Positions 1-11,219 of a stretch of DNA of 12,879 nucleotides are shown one piece after another. Origin of the DNA: DRGV01 sp018903055 [NCBI: bacterium] (lineage in GTDB: Bacteria; UBP18; UBA7526); assembly GCA_018903055.1 (NCBI GenBank), contig JAHIPW010000042.1:1-12879 (forward strand). Direction: 5' to 3'. Made by a program: the position numbers and the translations under genes. The number at the start of each line of letters is the position of its first letter. Positions within the stretch are counted from its first letter, which is position 1. The notes under the pieces are model-generated. The model was not told where the DNA came from, searched no databases, and was given only the letters and a program-made list of their open reading frames with translations.

Positions 1-883
1 AAATAAACATAATAGCAAAAAGGACGATTAGAATATTCTGGAATAGAAGGCTGAAGAGGGCAACAAGCATTAAGACAACTCCAATATTAACAATCCTTAT
101 TCTACCCACTCTATCGGCTAATACCCCTCCTAGGGATTCACCCAAAATTCCACTTAAGTGTATGGTGATCAAAAGCATACTGACGAGAAATTGCTCCAGA
201 CCATAAATCTTAGAGAAATAGACACCCAGCCACTGCCTTACCCCGTGGTAAAAAAAACTGATAGAGAATATGTAAAGGAATAAACGCAAGACCCGTCTGT
301 CAGAGAGCGCTTGAAGATAATTAAACTTCACCTTCTCTTTTACTAGAGAAATATCAGGAAAATAGAGATAAATCCCCAGGCAAACCAGCGCTGCCCCGAT
401 GGCCGGTAGTAAAAATATCCAGCGCCAAGGGATCAGTCCGCTCAAAAACAAGCCCAAAAGCGAAGAAGTAAAAGTAAGGCTAAAAAATCCCCCTACCTTC
501 TTGCCCCTCTCGCTAGAAGAAGAAGTTTTAGCAATCAAGATTAGACTTAAAGGTATAATGGCTGCCCCGGCTATACCAGCTAAAGTCCTCGCGGCAAAAA
601 GAGCATATAAACTGGGGGCTAAACCGGACAGAAGATTGGCTAAAGAGAAGATGCCTATACAAGAGAAGAGTATCCTTTTGAAATCCAGGCTCCTGGCCAG
701 TGGACCATAGAGCAACGCGGCCAGGCCATAAGGAAGCATATAAAGCCAGACAATCTTGCCGGCACAGAAATCATCTACCCTGAACGTATTAGCCACTGAA
801 GGAATTATTGCTGAAGCAGCAGCTACATTAAAAGAAAGGATAAAACCAGCTGAAGCAATAATGAAAAAAAGTGACCTTTTTAT
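1..883 (-). CDS. MFS transporter, partial (3' end beyond window)
   Basis: This is the N-terminal ~294 residues of a major facilitator superfamily transporter, likely the exporter of the polyketide made by the upstream genes. The reading frame is open from 883 to the window edge and has alternating hydrophobic segments of about 20 residues. The loop after TM2 carries a degenerate motif A (GPLARSLDFKR), and the later loop carries a clean motif A (GGVLADRVGRIR), the usual pair in the two MFS halves. The start is odd: no ATG, GTG or TTG lies in frame between the preceding in-frame stop and the first membrane helix. The best start is ATA at 883-881, preceded by GAGGAAGGC and overlapping the TAA stop of the aromatase gene as ATAA. 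An ATGA overlap changed by one base, or a sequencing error, would look the same. Next conserved residues would be KRSLFFIIASAG. The MFS assignment is firm; the substrate is inferred from context. Confidence 0.9.
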   Translation of the reverse strand, partial: MKRSLFFIIASAGFILSFNVAAASAIIPSVANTFRVDDFCAGKIVWLYMLPYGLAALLYGPLARSLDFKRILFSCIGIFSLANLLSGLAPSLYALFAARTLAGIAGAAIIPLSLILIAKTSSSSERGKKVGGFFSLTFTSSLLGLFLSGLIPWRWIFLLPAIGAALVCLGIYLYFPDISLVKEKVKFNYLQALSDRRVLRLFLYIFSISFFYHGVRQWLGVYFSKIYGLEQFLVSMLLITIHLSGILGESLGGVLADRVGRIRIVNIGVVLMLVALFSLLFQNILIVLFAIMFI

Positions 884-1320
884 GCCTTCCTCTCTTCCTC
901 AATAATACGTTTGAATATCTTCAGATTCTCCTGGGAGTGTTTATTAACCAGCTCCTCCACCTGGCGATCATTAAACTTGGCCTTCTCATCCATCTGGAAG
1001 TCCTGAATCCAGGTCATCAAAATACCCTGAGGTGTAGGAGTATAGAGCCAGATAATCTTCATATATTTGAAAGGGAATTCCGGGGGCAGCTTCTGGGCAT
1101 AGGCAAAATAATAATCCTTAAAAAGCAACCGAAAAGATTGCCAGGAGTGGCCTTCATGGTCAGTTAAGCGGAAGGTGAGTTTATTGCCTTCGCGTTTTAA
1201 AATCTTGGCCTCCTTATATTCCTCCCCAAATAGTTCTGTCCAGCGTTCAATATCGTTAGAGATGTCGAAGATTTTATCGTAGGACGCGTTAATCAGAATA
1301 GAATTACTGGTATGTCCCAT
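880..1320 (-). CDS. SRPBCC-family polyketide aromatase/cyclase (TcmN/WhiE-VI-like)
   Basis: A single-domain, 146-residue SRPBCC (Bet v1 / START-like) protein. Its landmarks match the aromatase/cyclases of type II polyketide synthases that direct first-ring closure and dehydration of ACP-bound poly-beta-ketones: an early DIERWTELFGEEY segment, a middle LTFRLTDHEG...SWQSFR stretch, then PEFPFKYMKIIWLY and MTWIQDFQM, and a C-terminal helix rich in charged residues (residues ~115-146). In TcmN- and WhiE-type enzymes the equivalent pieces read roughly 'DIxRWPELFPEY', 'PFxYMxIxWxY' and 'MxWxQDFxM', recalled from the family. Length equals the mono-domain type (TcmN N-domain, ZhuI), not the di-domain reducing type. 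The start at 1320 follows AAAGGAGGTAGAAG, a strong ribosome binding site. The stop TAA overlaps the presumed ATA start of the MFS gene. It acts in the cytoplasm with the KS pair and ACP upstream. Confidence 0.88.
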   Translation of the reverse strand: MGHTSNSILINASYDKIFDISNDIERWTELFGEEYKEAKILKREGNKLTFRLTDHEGHSWQSFRLLFKDYYFAYAQKLPPEFPFKYMKIIWLYTPTPQGILMTWIQDFQMDEKAKFNDRQVEELVNKHSQENLKIFKRIIEEERKA

Positions 1321-1340
1321 CTTCTACCTCCTTTAAATGA

Positions 1341-1382
1341 GCCCACAACTTACGGAACAAAGTGAACGTAAGTTGTTTGGGC
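1341..1382. repeat. Inverted repeat between cyclase and aromatase genes
   Basis: ACAACTTACG (1345-1354) pairs with CGTAAGTTGT (1367-1376); the outer GCCC (1341-1344) also pairs with GGGC (1379-1382) across a two-base bulge. The hairpin sits in the spacer of the operon, just upstream of the aromatase ribosome binding site. There is no T-tract, so it is not an obvious terminator; it may stabilise or process the mRNA, or be one of the mini-palindromes scattered through this DNA. Confidence 0.6.
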
Positions 1383-1440
1383 GAATTTATCCCGAGGCTG
1401 CAAAGCGGCCGAGGGATCTCAGCTGACTGTGCGAATTTAT
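1381..1440. repeat. Direct repeat GCGAATTTAT flanking a ~40-bp insert
   Basis: The ten bases GCGAATTTAT occur at 1381-1390 and again at 1431-1440. The 40 bp between them are GC-rich (CCGAGGCTGC...GGCCGAGGGA). The second copy contains the stop codon of the PF04199 cyclase (TAA at 1439-1437). The arrangement resembles a small insertion with a target duplication, but could be chance duplication. Confidence 0.4.
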
Positions 1441-2240
1441 TCAATCATGGCCACCACCCGGGCAAAGCTTGCTCCGGCATCTTTTATCCTTACCGGGAAG
1501 CAGGCAACCTTAAAGCCAAAGGGCTTGGGCAGTTTATCCAGATTGGCTAAGCGCTCTATATGAGCGTATTCCCTATTTCGACCGTAAAAATGGGCCGGCC
1601 AGAGAACCGTTTTGTCTTTCTTTAATAAGAAATCCTTGAGCATTGCGGGATAGGGTCGGTCAAAACCCAGGGTATCGATTCCCATCACTTTTATGCCCTG
1701 ATCCAAAAGCCACTCTATGGCCTCTGCACTCACCCCACAGAATTTGGTCATATAGTCTTTGTCGCCAAAGTGTTTATCGGCGCCGGTATGCAGAAGGACG
1801 ATGTCCTTTGGCTTTAATCTATAACCAATCTTATCCAGCGAAGTTTCTAAGTCTTTCCTGGTAATTGCTTCTGCTGCTTTCTTATGGGTTAGATCCAGGA
1901 CTACTCCATCTCCATAAAACCAATCCAGTGGCAGATCATCAATCTTTTTTGACTCCCTACCTTCACATCTTGTGCCAAAATGAAAAGGGGCATCCACATG
2001 TGTTCCGGTATGCACACTGCAATAAACCATCTCCAGAGAGAGGAATTCTTCATCAGGTAAATCGCTGGGTTTGATTATCCTTTTCCCTAAGAGATGTAAG
2101 ATGAAGCCCTTGAGGCTCTTGCGCATCATTAACCGATTCAAATGCTCAATGCCTTTTTTATGGGCAAGCCTCTCTATCCTAATGGGATGGGCCTCAGGAT
2201 TCTTATCATCGATGGGTAGGCTTAAATCAATGAATCTCAT
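1437..2240 (-). CDS. PF04199 cyclase / kynurenine-formamidase-like metal-dependent protein
   Basis: A 267-residue member of the 'putative cyclase' family PF04199 (KynB-type fold). The metal-binding signature HxGTHxDxPxH is intact as HTGTHVDAPFH at residues 77-87, and the C-terminal landmarks AHFYGRNREYAHIERLANLDKLP and a closing ARVVAMIE-like segment are also family-typical. Family members hydrolyse N-formylkynurenine or act as later-ring cyclases in aromatic polyketide pathways (DpsY-type proteins, as I recall). Sitting one base after the ACP stop (TAA-A-ATG) and upstream of an SRPBCC aromatase, it is most simply read as a polyketide ring cyclase acting after the first cyclisation. No tryptophan-degradation genes are in the window, which argues against kynurenine formamidase. 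There is no strong Shine-Dalgarno sequence, so translation is probably coupled to the ACP gene. Family is secure; exact reaction inferred. Confidence 0.85.
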   Translation of the reverse strand: MRFIDLSLPIDDKNPEAHPIRIERLAHKKGIEHLNRLMMRKSLKGFILHLLGKRIIKPSDLPDEEFLSLEMVYCSVHTGTHVDAPFHFGTRCEGRESKKIDDLPLDWFYGDGVVLDLTHKKAAEAITRKDLETSLDKIGYRLKPKDIVLLHTGADKHFGDKDYMTKFCGVSAEAIEWLLDQGIKVMGIDTLGFDRPYPAMLKDFLLKKDKTVLWPAHFYGRNREYAHIERLANLDKLPKPFGFKVACFPVRIKDAGASFARVVAMIE

Positions 2241-2241
2241 T

Positions 2242-2481
2242 TTAGGACGCAGCCTTTTTGCTTTCGATAAGGGTAACTATCTCTTGGGGTGAGCTGGACT
2301 TAGTAATTTCCTTGGCGTCAATCTTTACCCCGAATTTTTTCTCCAAGGCAACGGTCAGATCTACCATCTCTGTAGAATCCACTCCTAAAGAATCAGATAG
2401 TTTCTCCTCCACCTTAACTTCTTCCGGTTTCACGCTTAAGGTTTGGACAATAGCCTCTTTTACCTCCTCTTCCACTGACAT
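2242..2481 (-). CDS. Acyl carrier protein of a type II polyketide synthase
   Basis: A 79-residue acidic carrier protein. The phosphopantetheine attachment serine is Ser36 in LGVDSTEMVDL, followed by the usual helix II and the VALEKKFGVKI helix. N-terminal EEEVKEAIVQTLSVKPEEV is the standard ACP helix I. Length is that of a free-standing ACP. It would carry the growing poly-beta-ketone between KS-alpha/KS-beta and the cyclases and needs a phosphopantetheinyl transferase encoded elsewhere. The start at 2481 is preceded by GAAGGAGGTGTAAT, the strongest kind of ribosome binding site, as expected for a protein required in excess. It is separated from KS-beta upstream by 258 bp of palindromic repeats and followed after one base by the PF04199 cyclase gene. 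A housekeeping fatty-acid ACP is less likely given the neighbours (KS-alpha/KS-beta plus cyclases). Confidence 0.93.
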   Translation of the reverse strand: MSVEEEVKEAIVQTLSVKPEEVKVEEKLSDSLGVDSTEMVDLTVALEKKFGVKIDAKEITKSSSPQEIVTLIESKKAAS

Positions 2482-2504
2482 ATTACACCTCCTTCAATGA
2501 GCAG

Positions 2505-2605
2505 ACCCCGCACCTTTGATTTATTTATCTTTCACTTTTTACATATTCAAAATGTTAAACAATCATTCCTTAAAGCAAAATATGAATCCTAAAAAGGTGC
2601 GGGGT
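2505..2605. repeat. 13-bp perfect inverted repeat enclosing AT-rich DNA
   Basis: ACCCCGCACCTTT at 2505-2517 is exactly inverted as AAAGGTGCGGGGT at 2593-2605, enclosing 75 bp of AT-rich sequence upstream of the ACP gene. It is one of three palindromes packed between KS-beta and ACP. The enclosed DNA has only weak promoter-like matches on the minus strand, so I do not call a promoter there. The ends resemble the CCCC...GGGG ends of the element inside panC. Confidence 0.65.
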
Positions 2606-2617
2606 AGGCCGTAGGCC

Positions 2618-2699
2618 GTCTGCGAATTGAACCCAGCACTAATTTGCTTAAGTTATCGTATAATTCAAATTAGTGCTGGGTCAAATTCAGCCTGCAGAC
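2618..2699. repeat. Long imperfect palindrome between KS-beta and ACP
   Basis: The core arms ACCCAGCACTAATTTG (2631-2646) and CAAATTAGTGCTGGGT (2666-2681) are perfectly complementary over 16 bp. Pairing continues outside after a two-base mismatch with GAATT/AATTC (2624-2628, 2684-2688), and further with GTCTGC (2618-2623) and GCAGAC (2694-2699). The 19-base loop is AT-rich. In RNA this would form a very stable hairpin in the operon transcript; no T-tract follows on the minus strand. Confidence 0.7.
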
Positions 2700-2735
2700 T
2701 TATGTTTGCTCACTTCGTTCGCCTCCATAAGTCTG
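2695..2735. repeat. Third palindrome, abutting the KS-beta stop
   Basis: CAGACTTATG (2695-2704) pairs perfectly with CATAAGTCTG (2726-2735). The 21-base loop contains TTGCTCACTTCGTTCGCC, which resembles the CGCTTCGCTCAC piece of the element before the KS-alpha start. The palindrome ends five bases from the KS-beta stop codon (2742-2740) and overlaps the outer arm of the neighbouring palindrome. Confidence 0.65.
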
Positions 2736-2739
2736 GGCT

Positions 2740-3978
2740 TCATTTGACCTTCTCTAGTGCCATCACGGCATTAATCCCTCCCCGACCGCGAGATATGACC
2801 AGAGCGCGTTTGATCTCTTTAGGCCGGGCCTTATTGGGGACATAATCTAAATCGCATTCCGGGTCAGGATTTCTATAATTTATTGTGGGACAGATGGTAT
2901 TAAACATCATACTCAAGACGGTAGTAATGACATCCACACTTCCCTGGGCACCCAGCATATTGCCAAACATGGACTTCGGTACGCTTACGGGAATGTCTTT
3001 TGCCTTCTTGCCAAAAACCTTCTTTATTGCTTTGGTCTCGCTTATGTCTCCAGCAAGAGTTGCTACTCCATCAGCACAGATATAATCAATACTCTCCTTA
3101 TCAAATCCTGCTTCCTTAAGCGTCTCCTCAATGGCTTTAGCCAAATGGATTCCCTCCGGATCTGGCTCGATGCGATCATATCCATCGCAATTGGTATGAA
3201 AACCGCAAATTCTGGCATAGATAGGGGCCTTTCTTTTCCGGGCTTCATCCAACCTTTCTAAGATTAAAACTCCTGAGCCCTCAGCAATAACAAATCCGTC
3301 ACGCTCCTTATCAAAAGGTGCGTAGGCCTGCTCCGGTTTTTCATTCTTTCTGGAAAGGGAGCCAGAGGTATTACAGCATAAGAGGGCATAGGGGCTAACT
3401 GGTGCCTCCATTCCACCAGCCAAAACCAAATCCAGTTTTTCTCTCTCTAAGGTCCGGGCTCCGTAAGCGATGGCCATCAAGGAGCCGGCCCGGTCAGCAA
3501 CCACGGTCTTAGAATATCCTTTAATTCCATAAAAGATAGAAATCTGTCCCTGGGGGGCAGCGGGAAACCATGCCGAGACCATAAAGGGACTAATACCCTC
3601 CCGTCCTTCCACATAGAGGTCCCTTAATTCTGTTTCCGCAAAGAGCCAGCCGCCGATAGCATTGCCCATAAAGATTCCTGTGCGCTTGAGATCAAAATTC
3701 TTCAGATCAATATCGGCATCTTTCAAAGCCAGTTCTGCTGCTACTAAAGCCAGATGGGAGAAGAGGTCGATCTTTTTCAGAAGTCGGGGGGAGAAACTAT
3801 TGCTATAAGACTCAAGTTCCTTAACCTGTCCGGCAATGCGCGAAGGATAGAGTGAAGAATCAAAGCGGGTAATAGGGGTGATAGAAGAATTTCCCTCTCG
3901 AATATGCTGCCAGAAATTTGCTTTTCCAATTCCGGCCGGAGAGACTATGCCCATTCCGGTAATAACAATCTCCGCCAT
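2740..3978 (-). CDS. KS-beta / chain-length factor of a type II polyketide synthase
   Basis: A 412-residue thiolase-fold ketosynthase partner that lacks the catalytic triad. At the active-site elbow, where KS-alpha has STGCTAG, this protein has VADRAGS, so Cys is replaced by Arg163 (actinobacterial chain-length factors usually have Gln). The two histidine motifs are also changed: ADGVAT with Asp303 in place of His, and SMFGNMLGA with Asn340. Lys335 and the scaffold motifs (VITGMGIVSPAG at the N-terminus, APFDKERDGFVIAEGSG in the middle) are retained. It should heterodimerise with KS-alpha and set the length of the polyketide. The start is ATG at 3978, whose A is the last base of the KS-alpha TGA stop (TGATG), with GGGAGGAAG as Shine-Dalgarno; a TTG one codon upstream is unnecessary. 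One-base overlap fits translational coupling for 1:1 production. KS-beta role is very likely. Confidence 0.92.
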   Translation of the reverse strand: MAEIVITGMGIVSPAGIGKANFWQHIREGNSSITPITRFDSSLYPSRIAGQVKELESYSNSFSPRLLKKIDLFSHLALVAAELALKDADIDLKNFDLKRTGIFMGNAIGGWLFAETELRDLYVEGREGISPFMVSAWFPAAPQGQISIFYGIKGYSKTVVADRAGSLMAIAYGARTLEREKLDLVLAGGMEAPVSPYALLCCNTSGSLSRKNEKPEQAYAPFDKERDGFVIAEGSGVLILERLDEARKRKAPIYARICGFHTNCDGYDRIEPDPEGIHLAKAIEETLKEAGFDKESIDYICADGVATLAGDISETKAIKKVFGKKAKDIPVSVPKSMFGNMLGAQGSVDVITTVLSMMFNTICPTINYRNPDPECDLDYVPNKARPKEIKRALVISRGRGGINAVMALEKVK

Positions 3979-5243
3979 CAATCTTCCTCCCAGCGCTTCA
4001 GAATCATAGAGGAATGTATTCCGGAAAAACCGGAAGTCGTCTTTAGAATATAATCCACCCTCTCTTCTCTCCCTTTATTGGGTATGTAGTCCAGATCACA
4101 CTCTGGATCGGGAACCTCCTGATTGCCAGTAGGCGGCAAAAAGTTATTTTTAAAGATTAAGGTGCAAACAACCAACTCCAGCGCATTAGCCGCCGCTAAG
4201 GGATGGCCAAGCATAGATTTTAGGGAACTAACAGGAATTTTATAGGCGTAATTGCCAAAGACCTTCTTATAGGCGTTGGTTTCGAAAATATCATTTTGAC
4301 GCGTAGATGAACCATGAGCACTGATATGCCCAATCTTCTCCGGCCCAATGCCCGCATCTTCTAAAGTGAGGTTTATACATTCCGCCATGGCCTCTCCGTC
4401 ATCCGGCAAATCGGTCATATGAAAAGCATTATTGCAGGTTCCATAACCAACAACCTCTGCATAAATCTTGGCCTTGCGCTTTCGGGCATGTTCTAATTCC
4501 TCCAAGACTAAGATGCCACAACCTTCGGAAATGACAAAACCGTCGCGTTTACCATCAAAGGGGCGGGAAGCCTTTTCTGGTTCATCGTTAGAAACAGAAA
4601 GTACATTAACCACATCGAAGGCGCCGAAAGTAATGGGGGTAATGGGAGCTTCAGAGGCCCCGGTAATAATTACCTCCTGCCTTCCATCCTGAATCATCTC
4701 ATAGGATAGACCAACAGAATCTGTTCCCGCAGTGCAGCCGGTAGAGACCGTAAGACAGACGCCGTTTAATTTATAAAGGGTGGAAATCTCACTGGAAGGG
4801 GTATTAAACATAGAGGCATCATAGAGGTCGGGACGAACTAAGCGGGGGTCGATGGGCGCTTTTCCCATATTGGTTACCCGTAAGAACTCCTCTTCCATAT
4901 ATCTTGTGCCACAGATGGCATTTGCCAGAACTACTCCTACACCTTCTTTGTTTTCTTGACCAAGATCCAAAGAAGAATCTTCGATAGCCATTTTGGTAGC
5001 GGCCAGAGCAAACTGCACATAGCGGTCCATCCTTCTTACCATCTCTTCACTTAAACCAAATTTGTAGGGGTCAAAGTTCTCAACTTGTGCCGCAATCTGG
5101 GAGTTAAACTGGGAAACATCATAATTGGTTACTCTCTTTATCGCTGAAACCCCTTTAGATATATTGCCCCAGAATTCTTCCAGGCCGATACCACTGGGGG
5201 CGATTACTCCTAAGCCGGTTATAACTACTCTTTTCTTTTCCAT
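3978..5243 (-). CDS. KS-alpha ketosynthase of a type II polyketide synthase
   Basis: A 421-residue FabF-like condensing enzyme that extends the ACP-bound chain with malonyl units. The catalytic residues are visible: Cys170 in VSTGCTAGTDS, His310 in SAHGSSTRQND, Lys342 and His347 in SLKSMLGHPLAA. The N-terminus RVVITGLGVIAPSGIG and the GKRDGFVISEGCG segment are standard. Being followed with a one-base overlap by a triad-less homologue identifies it as the KS-alpha of a KS-alpha/KS-beta pair rather than housekeeping FabF. I take ATG at 5243 (MEKKRVV) as the start: the frame stays open to 5291, but that extension is translated repeat DNA (CAGATTAG/GAGCGAAGCGA) and has no homology to the family. 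No clear Shine-Dalgarno precedes 5243. The gene follows the TIGR04076-like gene on the same strand. Aryl-polyene KS/CLF pairs are an alternative, but the aromatase downstream argues for an aromatic product. Confidence 0.93.
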   Translation of the reverse strand: MEKKRVVITGLGVIAPSGIGLEEFWGNISKGVSAIKRVTNYDVSQFNSQIAAQVENFDPYKFGLSEEMVRRMDRYVQFALAATKMAIEDSSLDLGQENKEGVGVVLANAICGTRYMEEEFLRVTNMGKAPIDPRLVRPDLYDASMFNTPSSEISTLYKLNGVCLTVSTGCTAGTDSVGLSYEMIQDGRQEVIITGASEAPITPITFGAFDVVNVLSVSNDEPEKASRPFDGKRDGFVISEGCGILVLEELEHARKRKAKIYAEVVGYGTCNNAFHMTDLPDDGEAMAECINLTLEDAGIGPEKIGHISAHGSSTRQNDIFETNAYKKVFGNYAYKIPVSSLKSMLGHPLAAANALELVVCTLIFKNNFLPPTGNQEVPDPECDLDYIPNKGREERVDYILKTTSGFSGIHSSMILKRWEED

Positions 5244-5345
5244 TAGTTCGCTTCGCTCACTAATTGCACAGATTAGCACAGATTTGCTCACAGATTAGCA
5301 CAGATAAAATATCTGCGATCATCTGTATCTTTTAATCTGTGCCCA
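5244..5345. repeat. Repeat element A, directly before the KS-alpha start
   Basis: A roughly 100-bp element beginning at the start codon: ATTAGTTCGCTTCGCTCAC, TAAT, then CACAGATTAGCACAGATTT and, after a turn, ATCTGCGATCATCTGTATC and TTTTAATCTGTG. The halves are complementary (CAGATTAG/AATCTG, CACAGAT/ATCTGT), so it can fold on itself. A clearly related copy lies before the TIGR04076-like gene at 5941-6036. The innermost part ATTAGT...ACTAAT is itself a six-base inverted repeat. Confidence 0.7.
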
Positions 5346-5358
5346 TCTGTGGTTAGCA

Positions 5359-5940
5359 TTAAGAAACCCTACTCACCCTAAAAACGATATTTCCCCCATC
5401 CGGGCAGGTTACGGTATCTATGGAGTCTGGATTGTCCATAAAGAAAAATTTTGCTCCAAAATTAAGGGCAAAGAGTGCCGGAAACATAGTATGATAGGCG
5501 GCTCCACACATATTAGGTATACACTTCAACCCTTCCACTTCAAATTTATTACCTAATTTATAACCATAGGCACATTTCCCTTTGGCCTTAACTACCTCCA
5601 CAAGCATCTTTTTCGGCTGCGGGCCTTTATAAGTGGGGTCTTTGGGTATCCTTTCGACCTTTTTCTCTTCATCCAATATCTCTGCTTTGAATTCTAACTT
5701 CCCCCCGTCAGGACAGGTAATAAAAATGGAGCGCTGATTATCCATAAAGGGAAAACGCGCTCCAAAACTTAAGGCATAAATACAGGGAAAAAGAGCATGA
5801 GCTAAACCCAGACAGAAATGCTTAGGGGGATGGGTAAAATCCTCTAAGATGATTTCATCACCAATCTTATATCCGTGATAGCAATGACCCTCTACCTTAT
5901 TAACCGTAAGCTTTAATCTGGGAAATGATCTCTTAGCCAT
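5359..5940 (-). CDS. Tandem TIGR04076-like two-domain protein
   Basis: A 193-residue cytoplasmic protein built of two copies of one ~80-residue domain that I recognise as TIGR04076-like (a family of unknown function). Copy 1 spans about residues 9-88, copy 2 about 111-190, with a Lys/Pro-rich linker. Each copy has GxCxxGYKxG (residues 18-27 and 121-130), a middle Cys (43, 145), a FPxxxALxFGAxFxFMDN block (51-68, 153-170) and TCPDGG (75-80, 178-183). Cys20/43/76 match Cys123/145/179 in position, suggesting a structural or metal-binding trio per domain. Members are usually single-domain, as far as I recall. The start ATG at 5940 has AAAAGGAAC about eight bases upstream, supplied by the repeat element. 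It lies between the reductase and KS-alpha in the polyketide operon. Function unknown; context suggests a role in processing or binding the polyketide. Confidence 0.85.
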   Translation of the reverse strand: MAKRSFPRLKLTVNKVEGHCYHGYKIGDEIILEDFTHPPKHFCLGLAHALFPCIYALSFGARFPFMDNQRSIFITCPDGGKLEFKAEILDEEKKVERIPKDPTYKGPQPKKMLVEVVKAKGKCAYGYKLGNKFEVEGLKCIPNMCGAAYHTMFPALFALNFGAKFFFMDNPDSIDTVTCPDGGNIVFRVSRVS

Positions 5941-6036
5941 TAATTAGTTCCTTTTGCTCACTAATTACACAGATTAGCACAGATTTATATCACAGATTGG
6001 CACAGATATCTGCGATTATCTGTGTCTTTTAATCTG
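5941..6036. repeat. Repeat element B, directly before the TIGR04076-like start
   Basis: A second copy of the element found at 5244-5345, again starting immediately upstream of a start codon: TTAGTTCCTTTTGCTCACTA, then CACAGATTAGCACAGATTT, CACAGATTGGCACAGAT, ATCTGCGATTATCTGTGTC and TTTTAATCTG. By eye about four of five bases match copy A. On the minus strand the copy provides AAAAGGAAC, the best available ribosome binding site for this gene. Confidence 0.7.
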
Positions 6037-6038
6037 CC

Positions 6039-6074
6039 TGCCCCGTAGCTCGCCGAAGGCGATGGTATGGGGCA
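6039..6074. repeat. Imperfect palindrome with CGCC-GAA-GGCG core, after the reductase gene
   Basis: TGCCCC (6039-6044) pairs with GGGGCA (6069-6074), and an inner CGCC (6051-6054) pairs with GGCG (6058-6061). It begins two bases after the reductase stop on the minus strand. The shape (CCCC/GGGG ends with a CGCCnnnGGCG core) resembles the element inside panC. No T-tract follows, so an intrinsic terminator is unlikely and read-through into the TIGR04076-like gene is expected. Confidence 0.6.
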
Positions 6075-6075
6075 A

Positions 6076-7086
6076 TCATTTGTGTATCAAGAACTCCCTG
6101 GTTTGATTTATTAATTCTTCTTCGCTAAAAAATCGCTTACTCTTTTCTACTCTATGGACCATCCGGACCAATCTTTCATTCAAAGGGGCATCTTGACCGA
6201 TTGAGTTGGCAAGATTGACAAATTCTCCATTAATATAGTCTATCTCTGAAGACCGACCTCTCTTTATGCTCTGCAATATCGAACCATAAAGGGGCTCCTG
6301 GCTTAAACTGGCCATTATATTAGAGAATATCCTGGCTGCTTCATCTGGTGGTAGAGAGATGAGCCCGCTGATTCGTTCCAATGGAAAATCAGGCAAGGAG
6401 GCCAGCTTTATCCGGGCCTTGTTCACTAATCTCCATCCTTCCTGCCAGATACCCAAACTGATTTTGCAGATGGAAATATCTTTAAATGTCTCTTGCATGC
6501 TCTTGCCTAAAATTGCCGGTAGACAGTTATTGGCATTTACGAATAACTTTAGCCATTTCATCCCCATTATTTCATCACTTAAGGGGGAAGGGAATATCTT
6601 AGAGGTGACCTTTCTGATTTCTTCTAAATCCACCTTTGGCCGGTTGTCTATTCTTCCCAATATCCAATCGCCTTCAAAGTTGTGCACAATCTTGCCTGGG
6701 GCAAGATATGTTGCTCCAAACATAACTATACTAGCGAACAATCTGTCTTTACCGAGCCTTTTGGCAACAATCTCCTCTGCCCTAACGCCATTCTGAACGG
6801 TTAAAATACATGCCTCTTTCAGATAGGTAAAATTCTCCGAAATAGCCTTTTCTAAATCCTGAGTCTTGATAGCTAAAATAGCTAAATCAACCTTTTCATC
6901 CAGTTGCCTTTTAACGGGTAAAGTGACTGATAACCTGCCCCGGGTGCCTTCTATTCTTAAACCATTTTGAGAAACGGCCGTGAATTGCTCCGGATGGGCT
7001 ACTAAAACTACTTCTTCATCTTTGTCAGCGAGATACCCCGCTACCAAGCCTCCAATGGCTCCTGCTCCAATAATGGCAATCTTCAT
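6076..7086 (-). CDS. ApbA/PanE-family NADPH reductase (ketopantoate reductase-like)
   Basis: A 336-residue protein of the 2-dehydropantoate 2-reductase family. The N-terminal Rossmann fold has GAGAIGG (residues 7-13); the conserved KTQD (74-77) and TVQNG (96-100) segments follow. The C-terminal helical domain has the catalytic lysine region KWLKLFVNANN (Lys180, with Asn184) and the substrate-binding glutamate in SSEIDYINGE (Glu281), matching E. coli PanE Lys176 and Glu256. It therefore should be an active NADPH-dependent reductase of a 2-keto acid or similar compound. As first gene behind the promoter at 7129-7156, it leads the polyketide operon. Two readings are open: true ketopantoate reductase (panC lies about 5.5 kb upstream, and pantothenate feeds the ACP prosthetic group), or a tailoring reductase of the polyketide. 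Many paralogues have unknown substrates, so I give no gene symbol. No strong Shine-Dalgarno precedes ATG 7086. Confidence 0.88.
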   Translation of the reverse strand: MKIAIIGAGAIGGLVAGYLADKDEEVVLVAHPEQFTAVSQNGLRIEGTRGRLSVTLPVKRQLDEKVDLAILAIKTQDLEKAISENFTYLKEACILTVQNGVRAEEIVAKRLGKDRLFASIVMFGATYLAPGKIVHNFEGDWILGRIDNRPKVDLEEIRKVTSKIFPSPLSDEIMGMKWLKLFVNANNCLPAILGKSMQETFKDISICKISLGIWQEGWRLVNKARIKLASLPDFPLERISGLISLPPDEAARIFSNIMASLSQEPLYGSILQSIKRGRSSEIDYINGEFVNLANSIGQDAPLNERLVRMVHRVEKSKRFFSEEELINQTREFLIHK

Positions 7087-7100
7087 AACATAAACTCAAT

Positions 7101-7120
7101 AATAGTAAAATTTTACTATT
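7101..7120. promoter_or_regulatory. Perfect 20-bp palindrome, candidate operator
   Basis: AATAGTAAAATTTTACTATT reads the same on both strands. It begins about one base downstream of the predicted transcription start of the polyketide operon (positions about +2 to +21), where a bound repressor would block transcription. Symmetry and placement are seen; regulation is inferred. As RNA it would also form a weak AT-rich hairpin in the leader. Confidence 0.55.
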
Positions 7121-7128
7121 TAAATTTT

Positions 7129-7156
7129 ATTATATCATACCTTTTGCCTATGTCAA
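7129..7156 (-). promoter_or_regulatory. Sigma-70-type promoter for the polyketide operon
   Basis: On the minus strand TTGACA (7156-7151) and TATAAT (7134-7129) are both perfect consensus hexamers separated by 16 bp. The predicted start is near 7122, giving a leader of about 36 bases to the reductase ATG at 7086. No comparable promoter is obvious between the reductase and the MFS gene, so the whole cluster may be read from here. Confidence 0.8.
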
Positions 7157-7488
7157 GTCCTTTCTTAAACGCGGATTTTTCTTATTGCTTACTGCTCAGG
7201 CATAGTGGACGCGGATTATCACAGATAAATTCTAATGCGATTAATGGGATACAGATTACAAAGTCTTATCCGTGTTTATCCGTTTATCATCTGTGCGAAT
7301 CCGTGTCTATAAAAAAGCCGCCCGTTAAGGCGGCTAACTCTTCTTCCCATCAATGTCAACTAAAGCAACTAACCAATGATTAACAGTTATTCATTGGTAG
7401 GGCAAGCAAGCTATCAAGAACAAAGATCAAGGATCCAGGATCAAGGATCTAGTATCTGTGATCTGTGAAAATCTGCAAGTTATCTGTG
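7157..7488. other. Repeat-rich intergenic region without a gene
   Basis: No credible coding region. It holds degenerate copies of the 'CGCGGATTATCACAGAT / ATCCGTGTTTATCCG / ATCTGTGCGAATCCGTG' repeat family (about 7208-7310 and 7453-7500), the terminator at 7311-7335, an 8-bp inverted repeat ACCAATGA/TCATTGGT (7372-7379, 7391-7398), and a short direct repeat GATCAAGGATC (from 7425 and 7439). Confidence 0.6.
7311..7335 (-). terminator. Intrinsic terminator downstream of the permease gene
   Basis: On the minus strand AGCCGCC (7335-7329), a six-base loop TTAACG, and GGCGGCT (7322-7316) are followed by a T-run at 7316-7311. The stem is seven perfect pairs and GC-rich. It closes transcription of the permease, about 155 bp after its stop, and insulates the polyketide promoter downstream. 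Confidence 0.85.
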
Positions 7489-9021
7489 TCAATCTGTGGT
7501 TTTCACCACTTCTAATTTATGGCCTGTCCTCCCGAAGAGCCAGAGACTGAAGAATAGAACACCGAGGAAGAGATAGCCCAGGGCATGCCAGGGAGCAGCC
7601 TTAAAAGCCAGCTCCGGGGCATGAATGACCCCGAAGAAAGCAAGAATAGCAGCAGAGAAGGCATAAACCCCGGCGCTTCTGAATCTCTTATCGATTAAGA
7701 AAGCGGTCATGGCTGCCAGGAGCAATCCAGTAACAATGGCTCCATAGCCTAAGGAGGCCAGTCCTCTATAACTCACCCCATGGTCCTCTAAGGCAATCAT
7801 TCCTACCTTTTCTGCGGTAGTCTTGGCTGCCAATAGTGCTCCCTCAACATTGGTCCTTACATAGTTTGCGATGTGGGGGATGAAAGCAATGACCACTGCC
7901 GGGGCATGGAGCTTGGGGGTTGTCTGGAAGGCCTGGGCACCGATGACCAGGGCAATATAAAGCAGAATGCAGAAGGCCACCTCCTTTGGTATGAGCGCTG
8001 TTGCTAAGCCTAATAAACCAAATATCCCAATTAAGAAGATGACTATTCCATTGATGAGGGAATAGCCGGTCCGAGCACCCACCGCCTTCCAACCCGGATG
8101 GCCGATATAGACCGTAGTGGGAAAACAGGAGCCGAATAATGCCCCGGCCATGGTTCCTACCCCATCCATCATCATGGCCGTTCTGGTATTATATTTATCC
8201 CCGGCAGCAGAGGCGCTCTCCACGTTCTGCATGGTTTCTAAGAAGTTATAGATCCCCATGGGGATGACCACTGCTAAGAAGGGAGCCACCTCCTTTATCC
8301 CCTCCTTCATAGCACCAAAAACCGGGGTAGGACAGTAGAATCCCACCTGGGCAGCGGCGATTCCCACTGCCTCTGGTTTCATGAAGCCGATGGCCCAGGC
8401 CAGGCCGGAACCGAGAAGGATGGCTAAAAAGCCAGCCGGTATCCTGAAGGGGAAGGCGATCCTGGCGATAAAGCCAACCAGGATAATGGCTAAGGGTAAG
8501 AAACCAATCTGAGGGTTCTCCCAGATCCCTATGGTGGGCTTCATGGCAATCCAGGTAATGGCGATTCCCGCCAAAGTGCCCAATAGTGCCGCCCGCGGGG
8601 TATACTTCCTCACCGCATTCCCTACAAAGGCCCCCAGGAATTCGATGACTCCACCAATGAAGGCTGCCGCCACCCCTACCTTCCAGGCCAGTTCCGCATT
8701 GTTCGTCTTCCAGTATATGGGTCCAATGACCAGGAAGAGATAAGCGAACATAATGGGGGTCGATATTCCATAGGGAAGGGCGGTGACGTTCTTCCTTCCC
8801 TCTTTCCTTGCCAGCCTTCTCGCCATATAGGTATAGAAGATATTTCCCAGGATGATGGCTATGGCTGCCCCTGGTATCACCCGGCCATAGACAATTTTAG
8901 CGGGCATCTTAAATAGCCCGCTTAGGGTAATGGCGATGATGAGTAAGTTTACCAGGTTATCGATGAACAGTCCAAAGAAGCCATCGATATCCCTTCTCAC
9001 AAAAAAAGGTACTTTCTCCAT
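7489..9021 (-). CDS. NCS2/AzgA-like nucleobase permease family protein
   Basis: A 510-residue integral membrane protein with about 12-14 hydrophobic segments. It belongs to the xanthine/uracil permease superfamily: the N-terminal FGLFIDNLVNLLIIAITLSG, NVTALPYGISTPIMFAYLFL near residue 80, a VESASAAGDKYNTRTAMMMDGVGTMAGALFGS segment (the family's central substrate-site region), and GSCFPTTVYIGHPGWKAVGARTGYSLINGI. The nearest group I can name is AzgA-like (COG2252), with purines as known substrates, but this looks like a divergent branch, so the substrate is open. The start at 9021 is preceded by GAAGGAGGGTTT. A solid terminator follows at 7311-7335, so it is a separate transcription unit from the polyketide operon. 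Its GC content is visibly higher than its repeat-rich flanks. No purine riboswitch is apparent upstream. Confidence 0.85.
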   Translation of the reverse strand: MEKVPFFVRRDIDGFFGLFIDNLVNLLIIAITLSGLFKMPAKIVYGRVIPGAAIAIILGNIFYTYMARRLARKEGRKNVTALPYGISTPIMFAYLFLVIGPIYWKTNNAELAWKVGVAAAFIGGVIEFLGAFVGNAVRKYTPRAALLGTLAGIAITWIAMKPTIGIWENPQIGFLPLAIILVGFIARIAFPFRIPAGFLAILLGSGLAWAIGFMKPEAVGIAAAQVGFYCPTPVFGAMKEGIKEVAPFLAVVIPMGIYNFLETMQNVESASAAGDKYNTRTAMMMDGVGTMAGALFGSCFPTTVYIGHPGWKAVGARTGYSLINGIVIFLIGIFGLLGLATALIPKEVAFCILLYIALVIGAQAFQTTPKLHAPAVVIAFIPHIANYVRTNVEGALLAAKTTAEKVGMIALEDHGVSYRGLASLGYGAIVTGLLLAAMTAFLIDKRFRSAGVYAFSAAILAFFGVIHAPELAFKAAPWHALGYLFLGVLFFSLWLFGRTGHKLEVVKTTD

Positions 9022-9056: not shown

Positions 9057-9204
9057 TGATACGTTAATAAGCTGATAAGTTGATAAGTAAATACATATTT
9101 TTTGTTCTTGTATTTGCCTTCTCGTAACTGCTCGTAACCGTTAGTAACTGTTCGTAACCGATCACTGATTACCGATCACCGATTACCAAGCTGTTCGTAA
9201 CCGT
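9057..9204. repeat. Short-unit tandem repeats (TGATAAGT and 10-bp NTNGTAACNG)
   Basis: TGATAAGT-type units occur at about 9073-9088. Then 9121-9160 is four consecutive 10-bp units: CTCGTAACTG, CTCGTAACCG, TTAGTAACTG, TTCGTAACCG, followed by ATCACTGATTACCG/ATCACCGATTACC and one more TTCGTAACCG at 9194-9203, ending at the exonuclease stop. A similar array is at 10961-11013. Confidence 0.7.
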
Positions 9205-9205
9205 T

Positions 9206-10042
9206 TCACTTTAATCTTTCCCACTCTTTTAAATAGTTTTTAAGATGACTGCGTTCTGGTTTTTCCGACTCTGTAATTAGCAACTGTCGCAATAGTTCCT
9301 GCTCTTGTTCATACTGCTCAGTTCCGAAGAAGCCGGCAAAATGAGCCAAACGTAACCAGAGTAAATAAGTTGTCAGTGCATCGAACTCGTTATATGCAAT
9401 GATTTTATCTAATCCTCCACTGAGCCATAACGGAGCAACTTCTTGTCCATCTATTCCCATTTTACCTGGAATACCGGAAACTACCGCCATTTCATTAAGC
9501 GACGGAGTGGATTTTCCCCATCCTCCCAAAATTTTTATGAGGTCTATATTCCAATCGCCATAAGCTGAAAAATAGTCTATCCCTTGCCAGGGTTTATCCG
9601 GTCGTGAGCAAAACTGAGACGCTTCAATTCCATGGGCTACGCCACGTTGTATTAATATTCTGAGGTCAGAAGATAAAGAATTAAAACCTATCAGTTGAGC
9701 CTGGCGCTTTCCTAATGTTTGTAGAAATGTTTCAATAATATTTTTCTCGGAAGTAAGTTCTGGATTTGTAGGATCTGTAGGCAGAGAATGAAGATTAATC
9801 TCAATATCTGTATCCGTTTTTTTATAGCGGGTAACAAATGAAATCGAGACAACCCGGCACAGTGTGGTCTTCAAGTATGGCATGGGATCGTCCGCCGTCG
9901 CTCCTCCCTCTTTCCACATTTCGTGGATTATCTCTTCATCCGACATAGAATCTGGTAATTTATAAAGTTTTCTACCTGCTATTGGATCGGGAACCCACTC
10001 TACATCAAATACCCATACCTTGTCATGAACGAATTTAAACAT
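9206..10042 (-). CDS. PolB-like 3'-5' exonuclease (DEDDy family)
   Basis: A 278-residue protein related to the exonuclease domain of family B DNA polymerases (PF10108-like), without polymerase domain. The DEDDy residues are visible: Asp13 and Glu15 in VFDVEWVPD, Asp126 in GFNSLSSDLRIL, and Tyr217/Asp221 in AYNEFDALTTYLLW. These bind two metals and remove nucleotides from 3' ends, so it should act on nucleic acid in the cytoplasm, in repair or turnover. I choose ATG 10042 (MFKFVHDKVWVF) because GGAGA lies eight bases upstream; the open frame extends to a TTG at 10066, but that part overlaps the AACATTCGAAA motif. Upstream lies the DUF6717-like gene 78 bp away. It is a usual single-domain form; the biological substrate is unknown. 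Confidence 0.85.
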   Translation of the reverse strand: MFKFVHDKVWVFDVEWVPDPIAGRKLYKLPDSMSDEEIIHEMWKEGGATADDPMPYLKTTLCRVVSISFVTRYKKTDTDIEINLHSLPTDPTNPELTSEKNIIETFLQTLGKRQAQLIGFNSLSSDLRILIQRGVAHGIEASQFCSRPDKPWQGIDYFSAYGDWNIDLIKILGGWGKSTPSLNEMAVVSGIPGKMGIDGQEVAPLWLSGGLDKIIAYNEFDALTTYLLWLRLAHFAGFFGTEQYEQEQELLRQLLITESEKPERSHLKNYLKEWERLK

Positions 10043-10120
10043 TATAGTCTTCTCCAAAAATCTCAACTAACATTCGAAACCAACGGCTTTACGGGGTTAA
10101 GACGCGACTTCTTTTATTCC

Positions 10121-10537
10121 TTACTTCTTCTCGGCCTTGAAATATATGACCTTAGGTGCTTCTCTGAAGTACTTCAAAAGGGCTGGACAGAGCCAGCCTT
10201 CCATTTGGCATTGGGGGCACGCGTACCAGTTGCCGCCCGCCTCTTTAACTTTCCAGACAAGAGTGTGCGTATGGCCGGGAAAAGACTGGGCTGAAAATAA
10301 GAGCCGGAAGCCTTTGTCCGCATCAGGTATATCTTCTGCCAACTTGTCAATTATTCCCGGTATTCCCGCAACAAACGGCTCTTGGTACAGCCCTCGGCTT
10401 ACATCATTAAAAACCCACGTACCCGCGTAGCGATAGGGAGCAATGACGAAAATCGAGTTGGAAGAGGTGGCAACGGGCTTTTTGCCACAGCCACAAAGAG
10501 TGGTAATGAGGAGCGCTACGAATAGAATCTTTCTCAT
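10121..10537 (-). CDS. Small lipoprotein, DUF6717-like
   Basis: A 138-residue predicted lipoprotein. The N-terminus MRKILFVALLITTLCGC has a positive n-region, a hydrophobic stretch and a lipobox LCGC with Cys17 as the lipidation site. The mature part matches, from memory, DUF6717: FVIAPYRYAGTWVFND, LYQEPFVAGIPGIIDKL, DKGFRLLFSAQSFPGH and EGWLCPALLKYF. A CPQC pair and a further Cys near residue 116-125 could bind metal. Function is unknown. The frame is open to 10570, but ATG 10537 is preferred: it starts the signal peptide and follows GGGAGG by nine bases; the upstream part is the shared AACATTCGAAA motif. It lies between the exonuclease and the DUF5679-like gene. Confidence 0.8.
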   Translation of the reverse strand: MRKILFVALLITTLCGCGKKPVATSSNSIFVIAPYRYAGTWVFNDVSRGLYQEPFVAGIPGIIDKLAEDIPDADKGFRLLFSAQSFPGHTHTLVWKVKEAGGNWYACPQCQMEGWLCPALLKYFREAPKVIYFKAEKK

Positions 10538-10602
10538 TTTATCTCGCCTCCCAACATTCGAAACCAACAATCGGAAATTTCAAGCGGATACTAAGATACC
10601 AA

Positions 10603-10642
10603 GTGTCGCAGACGAAATTCAAAAAGATTTCGTCTGCGGCAC
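10603..10642. terminator. Strong hairpin after the DUF5679-like gene, possible terminator
   Basis: GTGTCGCAGACGAAAT (10603-10618) pairs with ATTTCGTCTGCGGCAC (10627-10642), 16 pairs with a single T/G mismatch, loop eight bases. It lies 24 bp past the DUF5679-like stop on the minus strand. There is no T-tract after it on that strand, so it may be a weak terminator, a 3' stabiliser or a mobile palindrome. Confidence 0.5.
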
Positions 10643-10665
10643 ACAAAATAAAAGGCAGGTAATTG

Positions 10666-10809
10666 TTATTTGCCCATTATCCGATACATACCAGTACCGC
10701 AGGATGGGCAGCAACCTTTCATTGCCTTTCTGCCATTCTTCATGGTGACTTCTTTGGCGTCTTTCATTTCTTTCTTCGCCTTGCACTTTACACAATAAGC
10801 TTCTGTCAT
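10666..10809 (-). CDS. 47-residue Cys-rich protein, DUF5679-like
   Basis: A very short gene: MTEAYCVKCKAKKEMKDAK, then EVTMKNGRKAMKGCCPSCGT and GMYRIMGK. Two cysteine pairs, YCVKC at residues 5-9 and CCPSCG around residues 33-38, form a likely zinc ribbon. I recognise the pattern as DUF5679 (often annotated as small zinc-ribbon proteins of unknown function). The start ATG at 10809 is strongly supported by AAAAAGGAGGTGTATC just upstream. A longer overlapping open frame on the same strand (about 10619-10843) is in another frame and is a shadow. It is the first gene after a 239-bp repeat-rich spacer; the hairpin at 10603-10642 follows. Confidence 0.85.
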   Translation of the reverse strand: MTEAYCVKCKAKKEMKDAKEVTMKNGRKAMKGCCPSCGTGMYRIMGK

Positions 10810-10845: not shown

Positions 10846-11013
10846 GAGTTGCGAGTTACGGGTTACGGGTTTCGAGTTTCGAATTGCAACCTTCGATTTC
10901 CAATCTCCGAACTTACAACTCCGAACTAAACCACTTATTTTTGTATTTACGTTCTTGCAACTATTCGTAACTGCTAGTAACTATTAGTAACCGTTAGTAA
11001 CTGATCATAATCG
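10846..11013. repeat. Low-complexity intergenic repeats, including a second 10-bp array
   Basis: 10961-11013 repeats a 10-bp unit (CTATTCGTAA, CTGCTAGTAA, CTATTAGTAA, CCGTTAGTAA, CTGATCATAA), the same family as 9121-9160. 10846-10925 consists of GAGTTACGGGTTACGGGTTT-type short repeats and TTCGAGTTTCGAATTG. It fills the spacer between the 56-residue protein gene and the DUF5679-like gene. No coding potential seen. Confidence 0.65.
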
Positions 11014-11048: not shown

Positions 11049-11219
11049 TTACTTCGAAGAATGAATTTCCCTCAGTTTCCGCCGGATTAGTTTGCTGCGC
11101 TTCGACGAACATCTAACAATGAATTCATTCATCTGGCGAAGCCACTCCAATTTTTTCTTGGGTGGTATCTTCATAAATCTTAAAAGACGTTCTTCTTCGG
11201 TTTCCCATTTGAAAATCAT
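11049..11219 (-). CDS. 56-residue basic protein coupled to the nucleotidyltransferase
   Basis: A short gene whose start overlaps the nucleotidyltransferase stop as ATGA (ATG 11219-11217, TGA 11218-11216), so the two are translated together. The product begins MIFKWETEEERLLRFMKIPP, then KKKLEWLRQMNEFIVRCSSK, and ends in a very basic SKLIRRKLREIHSSK tail. It is predicted helical and soluble. I cannot name the family, though similar small proteins next to nucleotidyltransferases are familiar to me. It might be a nucleic-acid-binding or antitoxin-like partner; that is inference from the overlap and charge. Confidence 0.75.
   Translation of the reverse strand: MIFKWETEEERLLRFMKIPPKKKLEWLRQMNEFIVRCSSKRSKLIRRKLREIHSSK

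Follow-up and report, generated by a model that had tools for sequence, protein, structure and literature searches.

The stretch of DNA analyzed here (the window; contig JAHIPW010000042.1, 12,879 nt) carries a run of minus-strand genes that reads from position 7086 to position 2 and specifies, in order, an ApbA/PanE-like oxidoreductase, a TIGR04076 protein, a ketosynthase (KS-alpha) and its partner KS-beta, an acyl carrier protein (ACP), a PF04199 cyclase, an aromatase, and a major facilitator superfamily (MFS) transporter (Table 1). Domain families were assigned through Pfam and NCBIfam profile scans of the window's proteins. The original prediction had described this run as a complete-looking operon for an aromatic type II polyketide synthase (PKS), with overlapping or abutting genes. 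KS-alpha and KS-beta do overlap, by 4 nt, and the cyclase and ACP genes abut; KS-beta and ACP, however, lie 258 nt apart. The window spans contig C18 of its source genome (G000; 1.085 Mb in 191 contigs, estimated at 85% complete with 2.95% contamination) from end to end and breaks off within the MFS gene. The operon is therefore truncated at position 1, to the left of which there is nothing, and is not complete. The genes that had been named, among them the ACP with its Ser36, the PF04199 cyclase, the TcmN-type aromatase and the MFS transporter, are all present by profile or structure matches; the TIGR04076 gene, and a set of radical-SAM (rSAM) and salvage genes on another contig, had been missed.

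Table 1. Features of the window, with one related gene on other contigs (G000 is the window's genome; L numbers denote loci).
Feature	Position	Strand	Remarks
MFS transporter, probable exporter	2..796	-	PF07690 (MFS_1) 1.4e-30; 265 aa present, cut by contig start
Aromatase/cyclase, mono-domain SRPBCC, TcmN/WhiE type	880..1320	-	PF03364 (Polyketide_cyc) 5e-8
Second cyclase, HTGTHVDAPFH motif	1437..2240	-	PF04199 4.3e-38
ACP	2242..2481	-	PF00550 (PP-binding) 4.7e-12; phosphopantetheine Ser36 (VDST) from translation
Two inverted repeats in KS-beta/ACP gap	2505-2538/2572-2605 and 2624-2646/2666-2688		one with 23-nt arms 91% complementary
KS-beta / chain length factor	2740..3981	-	ketoacyl-synt N and C domains, as in KS-alpha
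KS-alpha ketosynthase	3978..5243	-	ATG start at 5243; open reading frame listing gives GTG 5291
Dispersed repeat copies, 44 nt + 31 nt	5242..5339		between KS-alpha and TIGR04076 genes; same kind also in other contigs of G000
Two-domain TIGR04076 protein	5359..5940	-	TIGR04076 1.2e-28, two stretches
Second copies of 44-nt and 31-nt repeats	5943..6036		other side of TIGR04076 gene; imperfect direct repeats
ApbA/PanE-like (ketopantoate-reductase family) oxidoreductase	6076..7086	-	PF02558 1.4e-33, PF08546 2.8e-18
Arrays of 10-nt units with GTAAC	9098-9170 and 10951-11013		intergenic; also C94, C169, C91, G003:C2; useful for binning
Class II aldolase fused to SCP2	G000:C94 (L156) 9724-10725; also L111:4491-5519		Omnitrophota locus has same fusion

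KS-alpha has an intact active site. Counted from ATG 5243, which is the likelier start because GTG 5291 lies beyond the 44-nt dispersed repeat (5242-5285), it carries Cys170, His310 and His347, as predicted, together with Lys342, and this Cys-His-Lys-His set is intact in all 71 KS-alpha proteins that we aligned (the window, 50 relatives and 20 others). KS-beta has lost the catalytic triad, as had also been predicted, with Arg, Asp, Lys and Asn at the places of Cys, His, Lys and His. All 44 relatives examined have an Arg or Lys at the Cys site, as do the 11 KS-beta proteins examined from Bacillota, Cyanobacteria and Proteobacteria; nine actinobacterial sequences have Gln, Ala, Glu, Ser or Gly there. 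Among solved structures, the best match of KS-alpha is 6smo at 395 bits (6smo and 6smp are entries that we take to be AntD, the KS of the Photorhabdus anthraquinone PKS), followed by the actinorhodin KS (1tqy_A, 358 bits) and the best FabF (356 bits). The phosphopantetheine motif VDST of the ACP is found in 30 of the 36 ACPs of the group, that of the window included.

In a KS-alpha tree of 59 rows, which include AntD and the actinorhodin KS and no aryl-polyene KS, type II KS-alpha and FabF-type proteins separate at 100/100, and the window falls inside an Omnitrophota-type clade within the non-actinobacterial part of the type II PKS (100/99). For this tree the relatives were thinned by choice from 50 to 23, and two FabF rows (L010 and L013) and a masked KS-alpha from a related genome (G002) were left out. 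Assignment of the window's KS to housekeeping FabF, which would have undone the original prediction, is ruled out by this tree, by the failure of both KS proteins to reach the 494-bit cut-off of the FabF equivalog TIGR03150 (452 and 400 bits), and by the location of the genome's fatty-acid KS, of FabF type, on contig C11 together with FabG and an acyltransferase. Judged from their sequences, KS-alpha, KS-beta and ACP with the two cyclases are an aromatic type II PKS, and it is the KS-alpha tree that decides this. A second KS pair lies behind a FabA-family dehydratase on contig C169 of the same genome (L027, 546-3791), and KS pairs occur also in three related genomes (G003-G005). By eye, neither the Cys motif nor the first His motif survives in the second KS of the C169 pair, which also falls short of the FabF cut-off that the first KS passes; the pair is possibly a lipid or polyene system.

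The aromatase has seven strong matches among solved structures, all of them TcmN or "polyketide cyclase" entries, and these span nearly its full length (3tl1, 3tvr, 2rez (TcmN) and 2kf2 at E 2e-23 to 5e-23, with others up to about 2e-22; 3tl1 and 3tvr are presumably WhiE). The expected TcmN/WhiE match is therefore present, and the original picture of an aromatic minimal PKS with two cyclases in an uncultured lineage outside Actinobacteria stands. The PF04199 cyclase is 45% identical to the cyclase of a type II PKS cluster on a plasmid of Priestia megaterium; its matches in Enterococcus faecium and Crinalium have no type II KS pair annotated nearby in the PLSDB gene table, which is incomplete. 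A DNA search of positions 1-7156 against plasmids gave ten short matches, with 2% of the query covered in the five matches listed, and these were FabF where annotated. The MFS frame stays open upstream of GTG 796 to ~898 with no standard start codon, so that its start or frame is uncertain; the protein is 69% identical to the MFS transporter of a related locus titled Omnitrophota (L079) over 275 residues and can be aligned up to base 826.

The TIGR04076 protein has six cysteines (20, 43, 76, 123, 145 and 179) that are invariant in 30 aligned proteins. Its predicted model (pLDDT 91.5) has no clear structural relative: the best Foldseek E value was 0.57, and the best Z score in a second structure comparison was 6.5, to one half of an entry titled xanthine dehydrogenase, which is within the range of no clear match. 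The one paper found on TIGR04076 lists it as a potential participant in redox reactions or in the metabolism of iron clusters (PMC8667426), and our guess is an iron-sulfur or redox role.

The operon belongs to a widespread type of gene island. We carried out one scan of named genomes and retained the best 80 loci, of which 51 have a KS-alpha 62-71% identical to that of the window, a number that is accordingly a lower bound; in the other 29, from Actinobacteria, Proteobacteria and Cyanobacteria, identity is 45-51%. By title, 45 of the 51 close loci are Omnitrophota or Omnitrophica, and the others are from Syntrophaceae, Planctomycetales, Dehalococcoidales and three unnamed bacteria; these six are possibly misbinned or transferred. 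Each gene was labeled by its best blastp match (E 1e-5) to a set with one representative of every gene, of which nine came from the window and the others from L065, L087, L104 and L111; no coverage limit was applied to the relatives, and a coverage above 0.7 was required of the 29 more distant loci, which served as controls. The usual order in the 51 is PCP_red-like, ApbA, TIGR04076, KS-alpha, KS-beta, (rSAM), ACP, cyclase (CYC), aromatase (ARO), (MFS), short-chain dehydrogenase/reductase (SDR) and amidohydrolase (AMDH), where the rSAM gene may stand after KS-beta, before ApbA or after SDR. Where at least 8.5 kb lies downstream (n=20), KS-beta, ACP, CYC, ARO and SDR are each present in all 20 loci, AMDH in 19 and MFS in 13; where at least 8.5 kb lies upstream (n=28), ApbA and PCP_red-like are each present in 27 and TIGR04076 in 23. 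The 20 loci of at least 15 kb all have KS-beta, ACP, CYC, ARO and SDR, and all have rSAM (split in two frames in one) and AMDH (an edge fragment in one); they also have ApbA (19), PCP_red-like (19), TIGR04076 (16), MtnA-like (15), PNP-type phosphorylase (14), AMP ligase (7), class II aldolase (6) and aldehyde dehydrogenase (ALDH; 6). The counts of salvage genes are lower bounds, since flanks extend at most 9 kb. In contrast, no rSAM, TIGR04076, ApbA, PCP_red-like, PNP, MtnA, aldolase or ALDH gene was seen in any of the 29 control loci.

The rSAM proteins of the group share the CxxxCxxC motif (33 of 33 with coverage above 0.7), that of L111 has the B12-binding domain PF02310, and BchE is the best NCBIfam model for each of the four that we scanned. 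In 18 of the 20 loci of at least 15 kb, every frame of 200 aa or more between ApbA and AMDH is classified, which leaves little room for a large oxygenase in this stretch. Of ten unlabeled proteins from these loci, some matched nothing and the others matched a cupin, PC4, ThiS, pieces of IF-2B, aldehyde ferredoxin oxidoreductase or a 23S intervening-sequence protein; no oxygenase family was found among them unless the cupin counts as one. The aldehyde ferredoxin oxidoreductase gene lies between PCP_red-like and ApbA in the Syntrophaceae-titled locus (L065:1883-3784), which has a ThiS-type gene beside ACP. The gap between KS-beta and ACP, which holds inverted repeats in the window, is the position of the rSAM gene in many relatives. 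As a decayed rSAM gene the 258-nt gap was rejected, having given chance matches only (best rSAM E 0.55), as was a PCP_red-like remnant at 7087-7488, where there was no match to a PCP_red-like gene among the matches listed.

A candidate for the rest of the window's own island lies on another contig of its genome. We searched the rSAM protein of L111 against the six genomes of the window's phylum (G000 and G001-G005, all of one family, some 53-85% complete) and found one close match, at 13363-14475 of contig C94 in the window's genome, which is 63% identical and runs off the contig end; the others reach at most 32%. This copy, which is cut before the B12-binding domain, scores 169 bits to the BchE model. 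It is adjoined by an AMDH ortholog (53%), a gene that was found in none of the other five genomes, and C94 continues with a PNP-type phosphorylase, an MtnA-like protein, the class II aldolase-SCP2 fusion, ALDH, a phosphopantetheinyl transferase of holo-ACP-synthase type and a PadR regulator, so that the phosphorylase, MtnA-type and class II aldolase Pfam families are all adjacent. Among the six genomes, the window's is the only one with close orthologs of rSAM, AMDH, PNP and aldolase, and the only one with the aromatase; the phosphorylases of the other five are distant (33-35%, with none in one genome and a second match in G003 at 26%), as are their aldolases (28-31%). The orientation of C94, together with the order MFS-SDR-x-rSAM seen in L079 and L104, which is what such a join predicts, suggests that the end of C94 meets the start of C18. 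Both contigs also carry GTAAC-N5-GTAAC repeats (counts below), and among 16 other contig stretches of the family C94 is the best match to the PKS half in tetranucleotide composition (correlation 0.90). The two contigs probably join over a gap of ~1.4-1.8 kb that would contain the rest of the MFS gene, the SDR gene and the start of the rSAM gene, and the window holds about half of the gene island. Contig C89 of the same genome (L157) encodes three rSAM proteins, a CrtI-family-like protein and a thioesterase; BchE is the best model, below its cut-off, for the two of these rSAM proteins that were scanned, one of which has a B12-binding domain. Noted alongside was a cluster on contig C18 of G003 (L173, L174), which also carries PCP_red-like stretches.

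We consider it fairly likely that the operon supplies the polyketide half of an aromatic type II PKS island that works without oxygen, is widespread in Omnitrophota and includes rSAM tailoring and by-product salvage. The mechanism is read from protein families, the minimal PKS and the two cyclizations being the steps with direct sequence support. KS-alpha would condense malonyl units on the ACP, with chain length set by KS-beta; closure and aromatization of the first ring would fall to the TcmN-type aromatase, and a later ring to the PF04199 cyclase. The original prediction had taken the lack of an SDR to suggest an unreduced scaffold. That argument is not supported: the contig stops within the MFS gene, and every one of the 20 relatives that extend at least 8.5 kb downstream has an SDR there, although a search of the assembled genome for the SDR gave only two matches, at 31-32%. 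The SDR of the long relatives and the ApbA-like enzyme together make reduction at some stage likely, so either or both might reduce a ketone. A BchE-like cobalamin rSAM enzyme would stand in place of an oxygenase and may add either water-derived oxygen or a methyl group: BchE itself is described as introducing, in the absence of O2, a ketone whose oxygen comes from water (PMC13142503, preprint), which makes water-derived oxygenation one option and methylation another. The rSAM by-product 5'-deoxyadenosine, which inhibits radical-SAM enzymes (PMC8102628), could be removed by PNP, the MtnA-like isomerase and the aldolase to give dihydroxyacetone phosphate (DHAP) and acetaldehyde, in the manner of the phosphorylase variant of the DHAP shunt, which treats methylthioadenosine (MTA) and 5'-deoxyadenosine and gives DHAP and an aldehyde (PMC10986504). 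ALDH would oxidize the aldehyde, and the MFS protein would export the product. The PNP, MtnA-like, aldolase and ALDH genes are read as service genes mainly because they lie beside the rSAM gene. A bolder version, in which this is an end-to-end O2-free class of aromatic polyketide pathway, with oxygenation by a BchE-like rSAM enzyme using water oxygen and its own recycling line for 5'-deoxyadenosine, possibly turning the two-carbon piece into acetyl-CoA for chain starting, is doubtful in our judgment; were it true, the spread through Omnitrophota would be more in keeping with a pigment or core redox metabolite than with an occasional antibiotic.

A number of observations weigh against an rSAM-tailored island with its own salvage genes. 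The join of C18 and C94 occurs in no read or assembly and was deduced; the assembled genome has no SDR ortholog (one of its two matches is the FabG on C11) and no PCP_red-like protein. The rSAM proteins fall far below the 481-bit cut-off of the BchE model TIGR02026 (204-210 bits in three full-length relatives), and the cobalamin radical-SAM class is tied predominantly to methylation (PMC13142503). On C94, the PNP-type protein scores closest to uridine phosphorylase, below the cut-off, and reaches no phosphorylase model, and the MtnA-like protein is below the MtnA equivalog cut-off, though above that of the subfamily TIGR00524 (196 vs 186 bits). In two of the 20 long relatives the ApbA-AMDH stretch does contain unclassified frames, of 211-480 aa, L111 has a cupin there, and small oxygenases would escape a count of frames of at least 200 aa. 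The control loci, 22 of 29 of which reach 15 kb, showed an ACP, which such loci must have, in just one case, so that their zero counts are weak for short genes and weightier for long enzymes. Aerobic respiration, moreover, has been predicted for many Omnitrophota (PMC10066038). Alternatively, the cluster could be an ordinary non-actinobacterial aromatic type II PKS, the C94 genes being unrelated neighbors and the rSAM protein acting on something else. KS-chain length factor (KS-CLF) pairs are known in many phyla (PMC10132072), Bacillota plasmids have KS-KS-ACP with PF04199 and SRPBCC genes and no annotated rSAM protein, and the contig join is itself deduced; yet an rSAM gene is present in 20 of 20 long relatives against 0 of 29 other type II loci, and the close orthologs of rSAM, AMDH, PNP and aldolase occur in the window's genome alone among those of its phylum, for which reasons we regard this account as quite unlikely. 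A stronger contender, if still on the unlikely side, is that PNP, the MtnA-like protein, aldolase and ALDH are ordinary MTA salvage that lies beside the island by chance and is not an rSAM service module. The same enzymes treat MTA and 5'-deoxyadenosine (PMC10986504), and of 17 loci with more than 8 kb on both sides, four have all four salvage genes and three have none. Against chance stand the recurrence of these genes, in varied orders, near the island in the window's genome and in Omnitrophota loci, their absence from all 29 controls, and the distant relationship of the phosphorylases (none in one genome) and aldolases of the five other genomes.

Two further accounts concern the origin of the contig and the product of the KS pair. 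Since the closest loci are from Omnitrophota, the aromatase is present in one of the six genomes of the phylum and the bin has an estimated contamination of 2.95%, C18 might be an Omnitrophota contig misbinned into another genome. Its intergenic repeats argue otherwise. GTAAC-N5-GTAAC repeats occur six times in C18 and four times each in C94, C169 and C91, with one occurrence in 669 kb of the loci of the 51 relatives; C11 and C89 lack them, and of 11 stretches from G001-G005 only one, of G003 (C2), has them (9). A second kind is common to C18, C169 and C11 (C89 has neither kind). Because these repeats are common to contigs of the genome and almost absent from the relatives' loci, origin as a stray contig is unlikely. 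Moreover, a genome of the same family (G002) has ApbA-TIGR04076-KS-alpha-KS-beta beside its S10 ribosomal-protein operon, and the window lies outside the main Omnitrophota groups both in the KS-alpha tree and in a tree of core genes (below). We therefore rejected misbinning, which we hold to be highly improbable. About as remote is the possibility of a non-aromatic product of the KS pair, a polyene or a chain like that of a fatty acid. KS-beta matches FabF structures at up to 302 bits, compared with 244 for the actinorhodin CLF (1tqy_B), and is ambiguous when taken alone; KS-alpha passes the cut-off of the FabF-type subfamily NF005589 (436 vs 387 bits), which KS-beta narrowly misses. KS-alpha, however, groups with AntD and the actinorhodin KS in the type II clade, the aromatase and cyclase genes are adjacent, and 6kxd, presumably a polyene-type KS, reaches only 216 bits. 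An rSAM-tailored aromatic type II PKS island thus remains the reading that we prefer.

Two parts of the operon differ in history. A tree of joined ApbA, KS-alpha and KS-beta from 27 loci (the core) places L079 apart from the window, in a group with 12 further Omnitrophota (100/100), while in the CYC and ARO tree it is the window's sister (100/99), and an MFS tree also pairs the two (SH-aLRT 98). Holding the window and L079 together is rejected by the core data (approximately unbiased (AU) test, p 7.6e-5), as is holding the core's 13-locus clade together by the CYC and ARO data (AU p 8.4e-10); single-gene and joined trees used LG+G4 with no mixture model, and the AU-tested groups were chosen after identities and trees had been seen. 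By these tree comparisons, the history of CYC and ARO differs from that of the ApbA and KS genes. This is most simply read as a joint move of cyclase, aromatase and exporter, as one block, from one cluster to another, in either direction, with the Omnitrophota title of L079 taken on trust. It points to an exchange of cyclase and aromatase genes among clusters of different phyla, a process that can alter the shape of the product.

In G002, the genes beside the S10 operon (C28, L029, 12039-16315) are directly adjacent to it and come without ACP or cyclases on a partly masked contig; the 0.4-kb gap after KS-beta has no same-strand open frame for an ACP, masking again being partial. A remnant or split cluster is a possible reading. 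Outside the operon, the window encodes a 510-aa protein at 7489-9021 that is permease-like by eye and has no Pfam or NCBIfam match at 1e-3, and a small nucleotidyltransferase-type protein at 11216-11713 that matches Aminoglyc_resit (2.6e-8) and DUF6036. Rfam and tRNA scans of the window gave no match.

The aromatic polyketides of type II systems come mostly from bacteria that use oxygen, and oxygenases do much of their tailoring. A cobalamin-type rSAM gene and salvage-type genes in a widespread island of this kind would show O2-free finishing of aromatic polyketides, would point to an unexplored chemical family in Omnitrophota, a phylum that has not been isolated (PMC10066038), and would offer a case in which the coupling of by-product salvage to natural-product genes can be tested. 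Type II KS-CLF pairs outside Actinobacteria are themselves already known, and are not the rarity that had been supposed: McBride et al. report them in 14 phyla, Candidatus Omnitrophica included (PMC10132072). The available excerpt of PMC9902471 describes PKS biosynthetic gene clusters in general and ladderane-type clusters in Omnitrophota and does not mention an island of the window's type, and the main text of an Omnitrophota overview (PMC10066038) contains "polyketide", "secondary metabol" and "biosynthetic gene" 0 times. In open-licence PMC literature we found no paper on the Omnitrophota island, or on BchE-like proteins or 5'-deoxyadenosine salvage genes in type II PKS clusters.

Among known systems, Photorhabdus AntD is the best solved match of the window's KS-alpha (395 bits), but it groups with Proteobacteria on a long branch, and the Ant cluster is not known to hold rSAM or salvage genes. 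Loci of Bacillota and Cyanobacteria (Priestia L059, Apilactobacillus L061, Lactobacillus gasseri L062, Staphylococcus saccharolyticus L063, Phormidesmis L122 and Pleurocapsales L125) share the order of KS-alpha, KS-beta and later PF04199 then SRPBCC, as well as the Arg or Lys at the KS-beta Cys site; their KS-alpha proteins, however, are 35-48% identical to that of the window, and the Bacillota plasmids have methyltransferases, cupins or hypothetical proteins and a CoA ligase annotated instead of rSAM, TIGR04076 and ApbA. The window's aromatase resembles the mono-domain enzymes WhiE and TcmN over nearly its whole length (2e-23). Those enzymes are called non-reducing and act at C9-C14 (PMC5321127), whereas here there is an ApbA-like enzyme and, in relatives, an SDR. 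The clostrubins are aromatic polyketides of anaerobic bacteria (PMC5321127). The coelulatin cluster is a described case of an aromatic type II polyketide tailored by a radical-SAM enzyme; its methylase CoeI is HemN-like, and a soil-DNA clone was expressed in Streptomyces (PMC9714029); the island described here has instead a BchE-like protein and salvage-type genes. Finally, the DHAP shunt comprises a phosphorylase, an MtnA-type isomerase and a class II aldolase (PMC10986504, PMC8102628, PMC6079011); the putative counterparts here lie beside a polyketide island, with the aldolase fused to SCP2 and ALDH adjacent.

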